A program made the translations under genes and the position numbers. Below are positions 6,252 through 39,905 of a stretch of DNA of 64,000 nucleotides, piece by piece; position 1 is the first letter of the stretch, and each line of letters opens with the position of its first letter. The notes beneath the pieces are model-generated. The model was given only the letters and a program-made list of their open reading frames with translations, made no database searches and was not told the DNA's origin. Origin of the DNA: Desulfomicrobium sp. ZS1 (lineage in GTDB: Bacteria > Desulfobacterota > Desulfovibrionia > Desulfovibrionales > Desulfomicrobiaceae); NCBI RefSeq assembly GCF_024204645.1, contig NZ_CP100351.1, positions 3,436,001 to 3,500,000 of the forward strand. Direction: 5' to 3'.

Positions 6252-8666
<2,415 letters not shown>

Positions 8667-33969: not shown

Positions 33970-35608
33970 CCCTGAACTGAAACCCTCCGACGAATTCAAA
34001 AATTTCTATATCAAATTCTCCGTGATCCGTCTCGGGATCATGGTTTTTCTTTTGCTTTTGGCCATAGCCGAGATCGTCAATATTTCAGACAGAGGCATGA
34101 GGCTGGAAGTAAATCGTGATTTGCAGTATATTTTATTTTTTGTCAGCGGTTTTTCATTAAGTATTATATATCTCCTTGCTGCAAAGCGTTTTATTGGTTC
34201 TTTTCTGCTATTCAGGCTTCAGCTTTTTGCTGATATTTTTTTAACGACGTGGTGGGTTGTTTTAACGGGTGGATCATTCAGTGCATTTGCTTTTCTTTAT
34301 ATACTCTGCCTGTTTTTTTATGGTCGAATAATTGGATTTAAAACGATAATAATTTCTTCTTTTCTTGTCTGGATTCTTCTTTTCATCATATCATGTTTTC
34401 AATTCTACTATCCGCAATATTGGGCTCAGGCCCATATCCGCGGTTCCGATCTGGCCTATAACTATAGTTTGCTGACTTTGGCGCTTATTTTGGTCAGCTC
34501 TTTGGTCAAATTGAGTCGTACGGCGGAGAACCGGCTTCTGTTCCGGCTCATCGAACAGGAAGAAGCTCTGCGCAAAGCCGAGGAGATAAAATACCGCGTT
34601 TTTGACTGGATCGATGCGGGACTTCTGGTCGTCAACAATGTCGGCAGAATCACGACCGTCAACCAACGGACTCTTGATTGGCTTCCCGGACATAATCGCA
34701 ACGAAATGGTTGGGACCATGTTTGATGCCTATTTTCCTGAATTTCTTCCTTTCTGGAAGGATCGCGAGCTTGCGTGCCTGCGTCGAAACATGGTCATAAG
34801 CACCCACCGTGGCCTGGTTTTCGGGTTCAAGATGACTGAATTGCCCGAAAATCAAGGCTGGATGATCCTTTTTTCCGATATCACCGAAGTGCAAAGACTG
34901 GAACGGCAGGTCAAGGAAATGGAGAAGCTGGCCAGCGTCGGCGAACTGGCCGCCGGTCTGGCTCATGAAATGAAGAATCCGTTGGCCGGGATCAAGACCA
35001 GTCTGCAGCTTCTTCTCTCCGATGACCTGGAAAAGGAATTCTCCGACAGGCTCTCACGGGTCATACTGCGTGACATTGACCGTCTTGATTTTCTGCTCAA
35101 GGATTTTTTGATCTTTGCACGGCCCAAGGCGCCCGAGCCGTCCGCCCTTGATCTGGCGACGGAGCTGGAACACGTGCTCATGCCTCTTCGCCTGCAGTAT
35201 CCCGGCGTCACGATCCGCGCTCAAGTCGGGGATGAGCCGTTTTATTTTGACCGCAACCAGCTGCATCAGATTCTTATAAATCTTGTGGTCAATGCTTTGC
35301 AGGCTCTTGAAAACACGGAAGATCCGAACATCAGCATCCTGGAAGAAATCGGTCAAAGCACCAGGACCCTGATCATCGCCGATAACGGCCCAGGGGTGGC
35401 TGAGGAGATGGTGGACAAGTGCTTTGACCCGTTCGTGACCAGCAAGGCTGTTGGTTCTGGTCTGGGTCTGGCTATCGCCCGCAGGCTCGCGGCCCAGAAC
35501 GGCACATTCATCGATCTTTCCAATATTCCCACGGGAGGGACAAAGGCCGTGTTGGTTCAGGACCTCTCTTTTTTCCGGACCCAAAAGGATCCCCAGGATA
35601 CAACGTGA
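33959..35608 (+). CDS. PilS-like sensor histidine kinase (six transmembrane helices, PAS)
   Basis: 549 residues from a GTG at 33959 that overlaps the Mog gene stop; an ATG at 33923 in frame is the alternative. Six hydrophobic helices occupy residues 20-185 with almost no periplasmic loops, as in PilS. A PAS domain follows (about 200-310), then HisKA with His in GLAHEMKNPLAGIK near residue 338 and a HATPase domain with LVVNALQAL, DNGPGVAEE and GSGLGLAIARRL. No response regulator is adjacent. The NtrC-type regulator at the window start would be the right class of partner but is 33 kb away. The membrane part is AT-rich relative to its neighbours. Confidence 0.88.
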   Translation: MDNNPELKPSDEFKNFYIKFSVIRLGIMVFLLLLAIAEIVNISDRGMRLEVNRDLQYILFFVSGFSLSIIYLLAAKRFIGSFLLFRLQLFADIFLTTWWVVLTGGSFSAFAFLYILCLFFYGRIIGFKTIIISSFLVWILLFIISCFQFYYPQYWAQAHIRGSDLAYNYSLLTLALILVSSLVKLSRTAENRLLFRLIEQEEALRKAEEIKYRVFDWIDAGLLVVNNVGRITTVNQRTLDWLPGHNRNEMVGTMFDAYFPEFLPFWKDRELACLRRNMVISTHRGLVFGFKMTELPENQGWMILFSDITEVQRLERQVKEMEKLASVGELAAGLAHEMKNPLAGIKTSLQLLLSDDLEKEFSDRLSRVILRDIDRLDFLLKDFLIFARPKAPEPSALDLATELEHVLMPLRLQYPGVTIRAQVGDEPFYFDRNQLHQILINLVVNALQALENTEDPNISILEEIGQSTRTLIIADNGPGVAEEMVDKCFDPFVTSKAVGSGLGLAIARRLAAQNGTFIDLSNIPTGGTKAVLVQDLSFFRTQKDPQDTT

Positions 35609-38600
35609 ATACTTTCATCGCCGATCTGCACATTCATTCCAAATTTTCCCGGGCCACGAGCAAGAACCTTACACCCAGAAATCTGGTGGCCTGGGCCGGG
35701 ATCAAGGGCATCGACGTCCTGGCCACAGGCGACTTCACCCATCCGGGCTGGATGGATATAATCATTCAGCAGCTTGAAGCCGAGGAAAACGGACTGCTGC
35801 GTCTGCGCGACGACAAGGCACTGGAACAGGAGCTGCCCTGGTACTCCGGGAACATGAACGTGGCGCATATCCGTTTTCTGCTCTGCACCGAGATCAGCTC
35901 CATTTACAAGAAGCGGGACAAGGTCCGCAAAATTCATAATCTGGTCTTCATGCCCAGCATCGACGCGGCCCTCAAATTCAACACCCGTCTGGCGCAGGTA
36001 GGGAATCTCGCCTCGGACGGCCGTCCCATTCTGGGACTCGACGCGCACGATCTTCTTGAAATGGTTCTTGAAACCGACCCGCTGGCCTATCTCATCCCCG
36101 CCCATATCTGGACGCCATGGTTTTCCCTGTTCGGGTCAAAGTCCGGCTTCGATCGTATTGAAGACTGTTTTGAGGACTTAAGCGGAGAAATTTTCGCCCT
36201 GGAAACCGGCCTCTCCTCCGATCCTGAGATGAACTGGATGCTCAGCGCCCTGGACCGTTTTACCCTGGTGTCCAATTCCGATGCCCATTCCGGGGAAAAG
36301 CTGGGCCGAGAAGTCACTGTTTTTTCCGGAGAAATGTCTTTTGCGGGCATTCGCGCCGCCTTGCAGCGTAAGAGTGAGACGACGCGTTTTGAAGGCACCC
36401 TCGAATTCTATCCCGAGGAAGGCAAATACCACCTCGACGGTCATCGCAAATGCGGTGTCATGCTCGAACCCCAGGAGACCGCAACGCACCGCGGGTTTTG
36501 CCCGGTCTGCGGCAAACCTCTGACCATTGGCGTGCTGAACCGCATCTTTGCTCTCTCGGACCGGGATCTGCCTGTACGCCCGGCCCATCATCCGGGGTTC
36601 TCGTCGTTGGTGCCCCTGACCGAAATCCTTTCGGAAATTCTGGGGGTGGGTCCCGGCACGAAGAAAGTGCTTGGCATGTACAACCAGCTTGTTCAGGATT
36701 TTGGATCTGAATTCAGTATTTTGCGAGATGCTTCCGAAGAGGACTTGCGGCGCTCCTCCACGGTTTTGGCCGAGGCCGTGCGCAGGATGCGCCAGGGCGT
36801 GGTGCACAGGCATGCGGGGTACGACGGCGAGTATGGGCGCATCTCCATGTTCACCTCCCAGGAGCTGCTCGAATTCAAGCATGGGCGCATGCTGTCCATG
36901 GCTGCCCGCTCCGCGCCGCCGGAAGTACTGGGACAGCGCTGGCGCAAGACCAGGGGGGAGGTCTCGCCCCAGGCGGAGGAAGCGGTCCAGACGGCCAATG
37001 AAATGCAAATGGCCGCGATTCTCGCCGGCCCCGGGCCGGTGCTGGTCCTGGCCGGTCCCGGCACGGGCAAGACCCAGACCCTCATGGGCCGGGTGCGCCA
37101 CCTGCTTGCGCAGGGCGCAGACCCGGCGCGAATCCTGATCCTGACTTTCACCCGTAAGGCAGCGCGGGAATTGAAAGATCGCCTGCAGCGGCTTTGTCCC
37201 GGCCTGCCCGTGCTGCCCAAGACGGACACCCTGCACGCGCTGGGGCTTGAATACTGGACGTCCGTCATGGGCGAGGCCCCGATCCTTCTTTCCGAGGAGA
37301 GCAGCCGCAGACTTTTCGCGGCCGCCAATCCCGACCTGCAGGGCAAGGAACTCAAAACCGCCTGGAGCGAACAGTCCCTGGCCCGCGAGGACGGGGTGCG
37401 CATCCCTGGCGAACACACCAGACGCTATCTGGACGACAAGGTCCGCTTCAATCTGGTCGATTACACCGATCTGCTCGAATTCTGGCTCGAACACCTCGAA
37501 CTTGGGCAATGCGTTCCAGACTACGATCACGTCCTGGTCGACGAGGTGCAGGACCTCTCCGCTCTTCAGCTCGGACTGGTCACGGCGCTTTGCGCCCAGG
37601 GAGGGCGGGGGTTTTTCGCCATCGGAGACCCGCACCAGGCCATTTACGGATTCCGTGGCGCGGTGCGTGACGTCGAGGGCAGACTTCGCGCTCTGTGGCC
37701 GGATCTCAAAAGGATCAGGCTGGTCCACAACTATCGCTCGGCGCAGCAGATCCTAAGCCTTGCGGCGCATCTTTTTACGGAAAAGCAGACCCTGGTGGCC
37801 CAGAAATCCGTCTTGGCATCCCTCGTGCTATTCGAAGCCCAGAGCGCCGAGCAGGAGGCGGGCTGGATCGCGGGGCGGGTGCGCGAACTCCTGGGAGGCA
37901 CCGGCCACTGGCAGGCGGACACGCACGAGGGGAAAAACATCTCTCCCGGCGACATCGCCGTGCTGGTGCGTTTCAAGGCTCTTGTCCCGCCCATTGCCAA
38001 AGCGCTTGAGAGCGCCGGGATACCCGTGTCCGTGCCGGAGCAGGAGTCCTTTTTTGTCGATGCGCGGGTGGATCTTCTTTTGCGGATCGCCGGAAACGTG
38101 CTCGGACTGCCCGACGCCGTGGACGAGCAGATTCCGTCCTGTCCCGAGGGTGTGGTCGAGAAGGGACCGCTGGCCATGGCCGTTCATTTCTCCGCGACCC
38201 CGCCGTTTGACGCCCTGTTCTGGAAGAGCCGCGCCTTTGTGGATCTGGTCAAGGCCTTCCAGGCCTGCTCGGGCTGGCGCGGGCTTCTGAACATGGTCCG
38301 GCTTGAGACCGAGCTTTGCGCCATCAGGGCCAAGGCCCAGAAAGTGCAGATCATGACCATGCACGGGGCCAAGGGGCTTGAATTCGAGGTTGTGTTCCTG
38401 CCCGGCCTGGAAGAGGGCATCCTGCCTTTTGCGGGGATGGACATGCTCCTTGGCAAGCCCGGCGACGACCATGGGCTCGACATGGACGAGGAACGCCGCC
38501 TCTTCTACGTCGGCCTGACCCGGGCCAAATCCATGCTTTTCCTGAGCCACGCGGCCAGCCGCCGTGTTTTCGGCAAGACCTTGAAGCTCGCCCTGTCGTC

Positions 38601-38706
38601 CCTGGTGCGCCGTCTGCCGCAGGACATGCTGCGTAAAAGCGCCATCAAGCGCCATGTGCGCCTGACTGAACGGCAGCTGAGCCTTTTTGACCCGCATGCG
38701 CTTTAG
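35605..38706 (+). CDS. Fusion of EndoQ-like PHP nuclease and UvrD/PcrA-type helicase
   Basis: 1033 residues. Residues 1-400 match the EndoQ/TIGR00375 layout: PHP metal motif DLHIHSKFSRATSK at 7-20, LIPAHIWTPWFSLFGSKSGF near 165, NSDAHSGEKLG near 225, zinc-finger cysteines (KCGV near 283, CPVCGKP near 300) and a helix-hairpin-helix LGVGPGTKKVLGM near 350. EndoQ cuts DNA 5' of deaminated bases. From about 465 a superfamily 1 helicase follows: Walker A AGPGTGKTQT near 482, TFTRKAARELKDRL, VDEVQDLS near 645, GDPHQAIYGFRG, HNYRSAQQIL, MTMHGAKGLEFEVVF and YVGLTRAKSM. It overlaps the kinase by four bases and CbiR by eleven. The fusion is seen directly; coupled nick-and-unwind repair is inference. 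Confidence 0.88.
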   Translation: MNTFIADLHIHSKFSRATSKNLTPRNLVAWAGIKGIDVLATGDFTHPGWMDIIIQQLEAEENGLLRLRDDKALEQELPWYSGNMNVAHIRFLLCTEISSIYKKRDKVRKIHNLVFMPSIDAALKFNTRLAQVGNLASDGRPILGLDAHDLLEMVLETDPLAYLIPAHIWTPWFSLFGSKSGFDRIEDCFEDLSGEIFALETGLSSDPEMNWMLSALDRFTLVSNSDAHSGEKLGREVTVFSGEMSFAGIRAALQRKSETTRFEGTLEFYPEEGKYHLDGHRKCGVMLEPQETATHRGFCPVCGKPLTIGVLNRIFALSDRDLPVRPAHHPGFSSLVPLTEILSEILGVGPGTKKVLGMYNQLVQDFGSEFSILRDASEEDLRRSSTVLAEAVRRMRQGVVHRHAGYDGEYGRISMFTSQELLEFKHGRMLSMAARSAPPEVLGQRWRKTRGEVSPQAEEAVQTANEMQMAAILAGPGPVLVLAGPGTGKTQTLMGRVRHLLAQGADPARILILTFTRKAARELKDRLQRLCPGLPVLPKTDTLHALGLEYWTSVMGEAPILLSEESSRRLFAAANPDLQGKELKTAWSEQSLAREDGVRIPGEHTRRYLDDKVRFNLVDYTDLLEFWLEHLELGQCVPDYDHVLVDEVQDLSALQLGLVTALCAQGGRGFFAIGDPHQAIYGFRGAVRDVEGRLRALWPDLKRIRLVHNYRSAQQILSLAAHLFTEKQTLVAQKSVLASLVLFEAQSAEQEAGWIAGRVRELLGGTGHWQADTHEGKNISPGDIAVLVRFKALVPPIAKALESAGIPVSVPEQESFFVDARVDLLLRIAGNVLGLPDAVDEQIPSCPEGVVEKGPLAMAVHFSATPPFDALFWKSRAFVDLVKAFQACSGWRGLLNMVRLETELCAIRAKAQKVQIMTMHGAKGLEFEVVFLPGLEEGILPFAGMDMLLGKPGDDHGLDMDEERRLFYVGLTRAKSMLFLSHAASRRVFGKTLKLALSSLVRRLPQDMLRKSAIKRHVRLTERQLSLFDPHAL

Positions 38707-39406
38707 ACTGGCCGCGCCATCCTGCGTCATCCCGGACCGGGTCGGACCCAATTGCCGGGCGCTCTCTTCCATGGTCGGCGAGATCGCGCTGATGCTCCTT
38801 GAGACGCGTGGTTGCCTGGACTACGATGAGCTTGATCTGCCCTTGAATCTGCCCGAGCTGGGGCTGACCTACCATGCCCATCTTCCCCTGGATCTGCCCT
38901 GGCAGGACGGTCCGGCCGCCGTTGGCGACGCCATTTTCGCGCTTGAGCAAAAAATTGCCTTTCTCAAGCCACGCGGTTATGTGCTCCATCCTCCTGAACC
39001 CGGGAACCTCTCCGCGCTGCTGCGGCACAGGCCCGCCCTGTCTTCCATGCTCTGGCTCGAAAATACGCGCGAGGGCGATCTGAGTGGACTCTGGGATGAG
39101 ATACGCGCATGTGGGCTTGGAGTCTGTCTGGATGTGGGACACATGGTCAGTTATGGCCAAAACAGCCTGATGAGCCTGCCCGGTTTTTTCGAACGCGTGC
39201 GCATTCTTCATATCTATGGCGGGGAATCAAGGCGCGGGCATGCCGGGCTGGGACAGCTGCCCGATCCGGGCCTGCTGCGTGACATCTTGCTGCGCGTAGG
39301 GGAGGATACGACGCTGGTGGTTGAAATATTTACTCTGGAAGAGCTCGGACGCTCCTTGAATCTGCTTCAGTCCTGGCTTCTTCAGTGGGGCATGCACCAT
39401 GATTGA
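38696..39406 (+). CDS. cbiR: CbiR-type cobamide remodelling phosphodiesterase
   Basis: 236 residues from the ATG at 38696; a TTG nine bases upstream is possible. Xylose isomerase-like TIM barrel with HAHLPLDLPW, VLHPPEP, LWLENTREGD, VCLDVGHMVSYGQ, ILHIYGG, GHAGLGQL and a final VVEIFTLEEL. This series of His, Glu and Asp residues forms the metal site. Known: CbiR, first studied in Akkermansia, hydrolyses the phosphoribosyl bond of cobamides and yields cobinamide phosphate for rebuilding with another lower base. The next gene is CobU, whose substrate is exactly that product. The helicase stop and this start overlap. Confidence 0.8.
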   Translation: MRFRLAAPSCVIPDRVGPNCRALSSMVGEIALMLLETRGCLDYDELDLPLNLPELGLTYHAHLPLDLPWQDGPAAVGDAIFALEQKIAFLKPRGYVLHPPEPGNLSALLRHRPALSSMLWLENTREGDLSGLWDEIRACGLGVCLDVGHMVSYGQNSLMSLPGFFERVRILHIYGGESRRGHAGLGQLPDPGLLRDILLRVGEDTTLVVEIFTLEELGRSLNLLQSWLLQWGMHHD

Positions 39407-39905
39407 GCTGGTCCTTGGCGGCAACAAATCCGGCAAATCCGATTTCGGGCTTGAGCTCCTGTGCCGGGGGCCGCGCCCCTGGACGCTTGTGGCCACGGGA
39501 AAATCCCGGGACCTTGCCTTTCGGCGACAGATCATCACCCACCGTCAGAGCCGGGATGCGGATATCGCGGTGCGGGAAGTGGACACCGATCTGGCCGGCG
39601 CGCTTGGAGCCCTTGCTCCCTCAGGCGGCAGCGTTCTGGTCGACAGTCTTGATTTCTGGATGTTTTCGCTGGCGGGCAGCCGGGATGACGGCAAGCGGAT
39701 GAGAGAGGAATTTTTCGCCGGCCTTCGGGATTGGAGGGGGGGAAATCTGATTTTGGTATCGACTGAAATGGGGCTGGGGCCTCTTGCATTCGACGGTGAA
39801 ATACGGGCATTTGCCCGCGATCTGGGTCAACTCAACCGTGAAATTGCCAGTGTCAGTACAAGTGTGTATCTGGTCGTTGCCGGGTTGGCCCAAAAACTCA
39901 AGTGA
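39399..39905 (+). CDS. cobU: Adenosylcobinamide kinase / cobinamide-phosphate guanylyltransferase
   Basis: 168 residues. Walker A GGNKSGKS at 7-14, VATGKSRD, a conserved His H48 in IITHRQSR at the position of the GMP-carrying histidine of CobU, VSTEMGLGPL near residue 125, and a C-terminal YLVVAGLAQKLK that aligns with the CobU end. It phosphorylates cobinamide and transfers GMP to give GDP-cobinamide. It is slightly shorter than Salmonella CobU (181). It overlaps cbiR by eight bases, linking cobamide breakdown to reassembly. CobS and CobT are not in the window. Confidence 0.85.
   Translation: MIELVLGGNKSGKSDFGLELLCRGPRPWTLVATGKSRDLAFRRQIITHRQSRDADIAVREVDTDLAGALGALAPSGGSVLVDSLDFWMFSLAGSRDDGKRMREEFFAGLRDWRGGNLILVSTEMGLGPLAFDGEIRAFARDLGQLNREIASVSTSVYLVVAGLAQKLK

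Follow-up and report, generated by a model that had tools for sequence, protein, structure and literature searches.

The window, i.e. the whole 64,000-nucleotide stretch of Desulfomicrobium sp. ZS1 DNA analysed here, contains a single uninterrupted open frame of 1033 aa at 35605-38706 (+), whose GTG start overlaps the stop of an upstream histidine kinase gene by 4 bases. The frame encodes an EndoQ domain with PHP, Zn-binding and C-terminal helical parts (residues 6-420; 35620-36864, +; assigned with TIGR00375, PDB 5zb8 and Foldseek), a junction or linker (residues 421-458; 36865-36978, +) and a UvrD/PcrA-like SF1A helicase (residues 459-1015; 36979-38649, +) with shortened 1B and 2B regions and without a C-terminal Tudor-type tail. 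The same fused frame is found in relatives. The AlphaFold model, with 48 fused relatives as alignment input, has a mean pLDDT of 83 and contains both folds; most of the junction is of low confidence (429-458), and the tail at 1016-1033 is disordered (pLDDT < 50). An earlier note on this DNA, made from the sequence alone, had described an EndoQ-like nuclease fused to a UvrD/PcrA-type helicase. Matches of both domains by sequence and by fold within one chain confirm an EndoQ-type nuclease, predicted to be active, joined to an SF1A helicase. A sequencing artefact as the origin of the fusion was ruled out, since almost every listed member of the order has this frame in fused form, as have genomes of many other phyla.

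HMM and sequence searches of residues 1-420 gave the best score to EndoQ. Residues 6-422 match residues 5-387 of Pyrococcus furiosus EndoQ (PfuEndoQ, 5zb8; phmmer, E 1.1e-45), and Foldseek aligns the model with the same structure at TMt 0.88-0.89. The TIGR00375 match (E 1.2e-56, 192.7 bits) does not reach the curated cut-off of 326.6 bits, which is passed by none of the Desulfobacterota genomes searched and by just one of 150 Bacillota genomes; this cut-off is therefore narrow and indecisive for EndoQ membership.

The metal-site residues are conserved in the alignment with PfuEndoQ. The PHP motif D7-L-H9-I-H11 (35623-35637) corresponds to Pfu D6, H8 and H10, with D7 and H11 present in 57/57 fusions and H9 in 56/57. 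The Zn ligands E96 (35890-35892; Pfu E76; Glu in 56/57 fusions), H111 (35935-35937; Pfu H84; 57/57) and H167 (36103-36105; Pfu H139; 57/57) follow, the last also being a base-exclusion residue. The substitutions E76A, H84A and H139A abolish PfuEndoQ activity, and T and A are sterically excluded from its pocket by H139, G169 and S171 (PMC8307549). The latter two correspond to G202 and S204 in the segment G202-L-S204 (36208-36216; 57/57 fusions). D226 and H228 of the SDAH motif (D226-A-H228, 36280-36288) are likewise present in 57/57. The zinc finger is H280-x2-C283 ... C299-x2-C302 (36442-36510; all these features on the + strand), while that of Pfu is CCCC; the position of H280 (Cys249 in Pfu) is His in 56/57 fusions and in 32/32 standalone EndoQs. 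The PHP and zinc-finger landmarks of the EndoQ pattern claimed in the earlier note are all present, with His as one zinc ligand; for its helix-hairpin-helix the segment ILGVGPGTKK is a plausible candidate, although it was matched by none of the HhH models in a Pfam search of the fusion protein.

Since AP sites and oxidised pyrimidines are further substrates of PfuEndoQ (PMC8307549), and the two EndoQ domains are only about 29-30% identical in structural alignment, the fused domain might have shifted its substrate, e.g. to AP sites or oxidised pyrimidines only, the fusion then serving general nucleotide incision repair. The invariance of the T/A-excluding residues in 57/57 fusions and the lack of UDG and EndoV in most of the order argue against such a shift, which we consider unlikely.

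The helicase domain

Residues of about 460-1020 match PF00580, PF13361 and the PcrA/UvrD/Rep models, the equivalog cut-offs of the latter not being reached (208 bits vs 911 for PcrA). In Foldseek comparisons with UvrD, Rep and PcrA the helicase part yields a TMt of about 0.56-0.69. By these scores the fused helicase is a relative of PcrA, UvrD and Rep and not itself one of them. In the alignment of 48 fusions the key positions of motifs I, II, III, V and VI are invariant: Walker A AGPGTGKT (483-490; 37051-37074; A483, G484, P485, G486, G488, K489 and T490 invariant), motif II DEVQD (646-650; 37540-37554; D646, E647, Q649 and D650 invariant), motif III GDPHQAIYGFRG (674-685; 37624-37659), motif V HGAKGLE (920-926; 38362-38382) and motif VI EERRLFYVGLTR (962-973; 38488-38523), all on the + strand. 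The superfamily 1 helicase is complete, as had been claimed, with all SF1A motifs present.

While all motifs and the overall fold are shared with PcrA, UvrD and Rep, the fused helicases differ in the attached nuclease, in 1B and 2B regions shorter than those of PcrA, and in a predicted clamp peptide in place of the Tudor tail. They end mostly about 55-75 residues past motif VI; the longer tail of most canonical PcrA is absent. For UvrD, PMC7585439 describes the terminal Tudor domain as governing contact with RNA polymerase.

Given the shortened 1B and 2B, the motor may move along DNA but unwind it only poorly. With PcrA, UvrD and Rep as the closest solved relatives, and with a predicted clamp tether that points to replication, the protein might be a clamp-bound fork-rescue or R-loop factor, in which the nuclease is active and the motor serves mostly for translocation or for removing proteins at stalled forks. 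The EndoQ lesion pocket and catalytic residues are, however, strictly conserved across many phyla, and a separate canonical PcrA/UvrD coexists with the fusion: PcrA-type helicase matches occur in 15/15 genomes checked; 13 of these, including that of the window, which has its own UvrD-type helicase and also an AddA/RecB-like gene, supplied a distinct canonical PcrA/UvrD-type gene. A role confined to stalled forks or R-loops is improbable on this evidence.

Distribution and origin of the fusion

TIGR00375 matches are present in 22/22 genomes of the family Desulfomicrobiaceae and in 193/199 genomes of the order Desulfovibrionales, where nearly all listed matches are frames of about 1000 aa or longer. 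Across Desulfobacterota they occur in 255/395 genomes as a mix of standalones (410-460 aa) and fusions (about 960-1170 aa). Samples of other phyla contain the family in 75/150 Bacillota genomes, about 20 of which have frames close to or above 1000 aa, and in 5/150 Actinomycetota genomes. Two Bacillota genomes (G586 C112 and G733) possess both the short and the long form. Scanning 84,980 species genomes yielded 80 loci, i.e. 53 fused, 4 directly adjacent pairs, 21 alone and 2 cut by a contig end. The record titles of the fusions span at least 12 named phyla, although many come from MAGs with possibly imperfect labels; cultured isolates with the fusion belong to Moorella, Bacilliculturomica, Anaerotruncus, Dactylosporangium and Micromonospora. 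The earlier statement that EndoQ mostly stands alone agrees with published work on archaea and is also true of many bacteria, but in Desulfovibrionales the fused form predominates, and it is common in many phyla.

In the EndoQ tree of Desulfobacterota the fusions form one clade with one standalone inside. The cross-phylum EndoQ tree also unites them in one clade (SH-aLRT 96), containing 3 standalones and 3 pairs, which are readable as later splits or losses. In the helicase tree 13 canonical UvrD/PcrA sequences fall on one side (98), with every fused and paired helicase opposite. The trees suggest that the fusion arose mostly from one event, followed by later splits. Several independent fusions were rejected for the bulk of the sequences, given the one fused clade in the EndoQ tree and exceptions readable as later splits. 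A standalone EndoQ with an adjacent helicase was rejected as the common ancestral state, this arrangement being absent in the Desulfobacterota standalone loci read. Outside these, four adjacent EndoQ/helicase pairs were found, with both domains present. In a Nitrospirota locus (L168, 5577-6851 and 6855-8813, +) EndoQ and its cognate helicase are consecutive separate genes, both with clamp-like ends, and this pair could be a pre-fusion state or a split.

Of the loci read in the order, about two thirds preserve the gene run MoaB-kinase-fusion-CbiR-CobU-DHH-polA; elsewhere it is not preserved. A CbiR cobamide-remodelling phosphodiesterase gene followed by CobU (38687-39905, +), kept in much of the order, lies between the fusion gene and DHH/polA in the window; because both are cobamide genes, the run is no repair operon. 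At the fusion loci of other lineages the ten immediate neighbours include no consistent shared gene; one is uvrB (Moorella). The earlier note had correctly placed polA four genes downstream of the fusion gene, but its use of this position as a sign of a self-contained repair route is weak, as the run is order-specific, includes cobalamin genes and is absent at fusion loci elsewhere. For the same reason a gene-neighbour pathway with polA was dropped.

An anti-phage role, in which the nuclease-helicase would attack uracil-rich or modified phage DNA in a Gabija-like manner, was considered as well. The helicase part is hit by GajB models of PADLOC (best score 198 bits), and an antiviral role of Bacillus EndoQ is raised as a possibility in a review (PMC8307549). 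The GajB match, however, reflects generic UvrD homology of the SF1A motor and is not above that to PcrA (208 bits); in contrast to Gabija, an EndoQ domain is attached, and none of the neighbouring genes identified within 33-46 kb is GajA (OLD/TOPRIM), the other neighbours having been recognised by eye only. The near-universal presence in the order and the conserved neighbourhood are of a housekeeping kind. A search for viral homologues found none. The defence reading is very unlikely and was set aside, given the generic GajB homology and the result of the viral search.

Predicted clamp peptides at the terminus and the junction

The C-terminus of the fusion protein reads ...RQLSLFDPHAL and holds, in its disordered tail, a predicted beta-clamp-binding peptide of canonical type, QLSLF (residues 1024-1028; 38674-38688, +). 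All 48 aligned fusions have Q1024, and at least 90% have L1027 and at least 90% F1028. A clamp-type peptide occurs within the last 22 residues of 45/47 complete fusions in the cross-phylum scan, vs 0.34 expected by shuffling, and terminally in 0/933 neighbour ORFs and 0/13 canonical UvrD/PcrA. Under a stricter pattern it is retained in 31/57 Desulfobacterota fusions (vs 0.1), so the tails of some members of the order are degenerate.

A second motif, Q-x2-LF, is found at the fusion junction in 28/48 aligned fusions (vs 3.1 in shuffled sequences) and is degenerate in the window protein. It lies nearly always at offset 13, and standalone EndoQs bear their terminal peptide mostly at 13-15; most of the standalones seen in Desulfobacterota end in a clamp peptide. 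From its position, we interpret the junction motif as what is left of the clamp peptide of EndoQ itself. That bacterial homologues of EndoQ carry a clamp motif was pointed out in 2016, the helicase being unmentioned (PMC4858679).

A standalone EndoQ nested in the fused clade (L157, genome G533, 6756-8045, -) has lost its helicase and retains the clamp peptide; its tail RRRKEQLTLF resembles the tail RRERKEQLLLF of a fused relative (L115). Two further EndoQ genes (L138, 3938-5461, +, and L160, 6177-7496, +) have scores like those of the fused clade, without helicase and clamp tail in the region read, and are possibly truncated copies.

Proposed repair route

Taken together, the fusion is probably a single-chain, clamp-tethered EndoQ-helicase that excises deaminated bases, with predicted activity, clamp binding and unwinding direction. 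The C-terminal QLSLF would dock the protein on the beta sliding clamp and hold it at freshly replicated DNA, in the way that archaeal EndoQ is tied to PCNA by its PIP box. The EndoQ domain would flip out dU and dI, probably also dX and AP sites, and nick on the 5' side. The known polarity of UvrD, PcrA and Rep is 3'-5'. A motor of this polarity, brought to the nick, would run 3'->5' along the opposite strand and peel back the downstream strand; as a 5' nick leaves the lesion at the 5' end of that strand, exactly this strand would be displaced. A 5' nuclease and PolA would then remove the flap and fill in, and ligase would seal. Where both peptides are present, they could occupy both clefts of the dimeric clamp. 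A step of 'removal by helicase activity' after the EndoQ nick was already drawn in 2015 (PMC4357722). Against the repair reading stand the TIGR00375 score below cut-off, the His zinc ligand, the short 1B and 2B, the degeneration of some tails and the lack of a conserved repair operon outside the order.

The repair inventory bears on the same question. EndoV was found in 0/81 genomes of the order, and UDG was recognised in 20/81, 11 of these at < 30 bits, and unrecognised in 61/81; the UDG search was positive in 13/14 control genomes. In a survey that covered UDG and EndoV among the deamination enzymes (others being AlkA, the MIG/Nth-like and HDG glycosylases and dU-cutting ExoIII), the fusion is thus often the sole initiator for deaminated bases recognised in the order. 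The terminal clamp peptide together with the missing EndoV and usually missing UDG, none of which the earlier note mentions, supports a repair role better than the polA neighbourhood does. It is conceivable, although we hold this broader proposal only tentatively, that in bacteria without UDG and EndoV the repair of deaminated bases is begun chiefly by the fusion, a glycosylase-independent system in one polypeptide, of essentially single origin, that replaces uracil BER in many phyla.

In the literature EndoQ is mainly an archaeal, standalone nuclease with an unclear downstream pathway. PfuEndoQ (5zb8, 7k30-7k33; PMC4357722) shares with the fusion the whole fold, the PHP metal site, the pocket residues, the Zn-binding domain and a C-terminal clamp peptide (the PIP box), but it lacks a helicase, has the CCCC finger where the fusion has HCCC, and binds PCNA where the fusion would presumably bind the beta clamp, a parallel to the archaeal EndoQ-PCNA link. 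The standalone EndoQs of Bacillus pumilus, B. subtilis and Desulfobacterota share the EndoQ domain, whereas the helicase is present only in the fusion; activity of the B. pumilus enzyme has been demonstrated, as cited in PMC6202378. Desulfovibrio proteins have been recognised as EndoQ homologues since 2015 (PMC4357722), and no description of the fusion was found in the open-access literature. The sequences themselves are not new; new are the architecture, its breadth, the largely single origin, the conserved terminal clamp peptide and the link to missing UDG and EndoV. Helicase and clamp tail would name the next two steps after EndoQ, testable in one protein, and suggest how cytosine and adenine deamination may be handled by bacteria in which neither UDG nor EndoV is recognisable.

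In the window's own genome no EndoV was found, and a single weak UDG-superfamily protein of 248 aa was detected (26.7-27.5 bits). The latter (L161, 1414-2160, -; own genome C1:3422125-3422406) is divergent, has no NCBIfam match and is found in most genomes of the genus.
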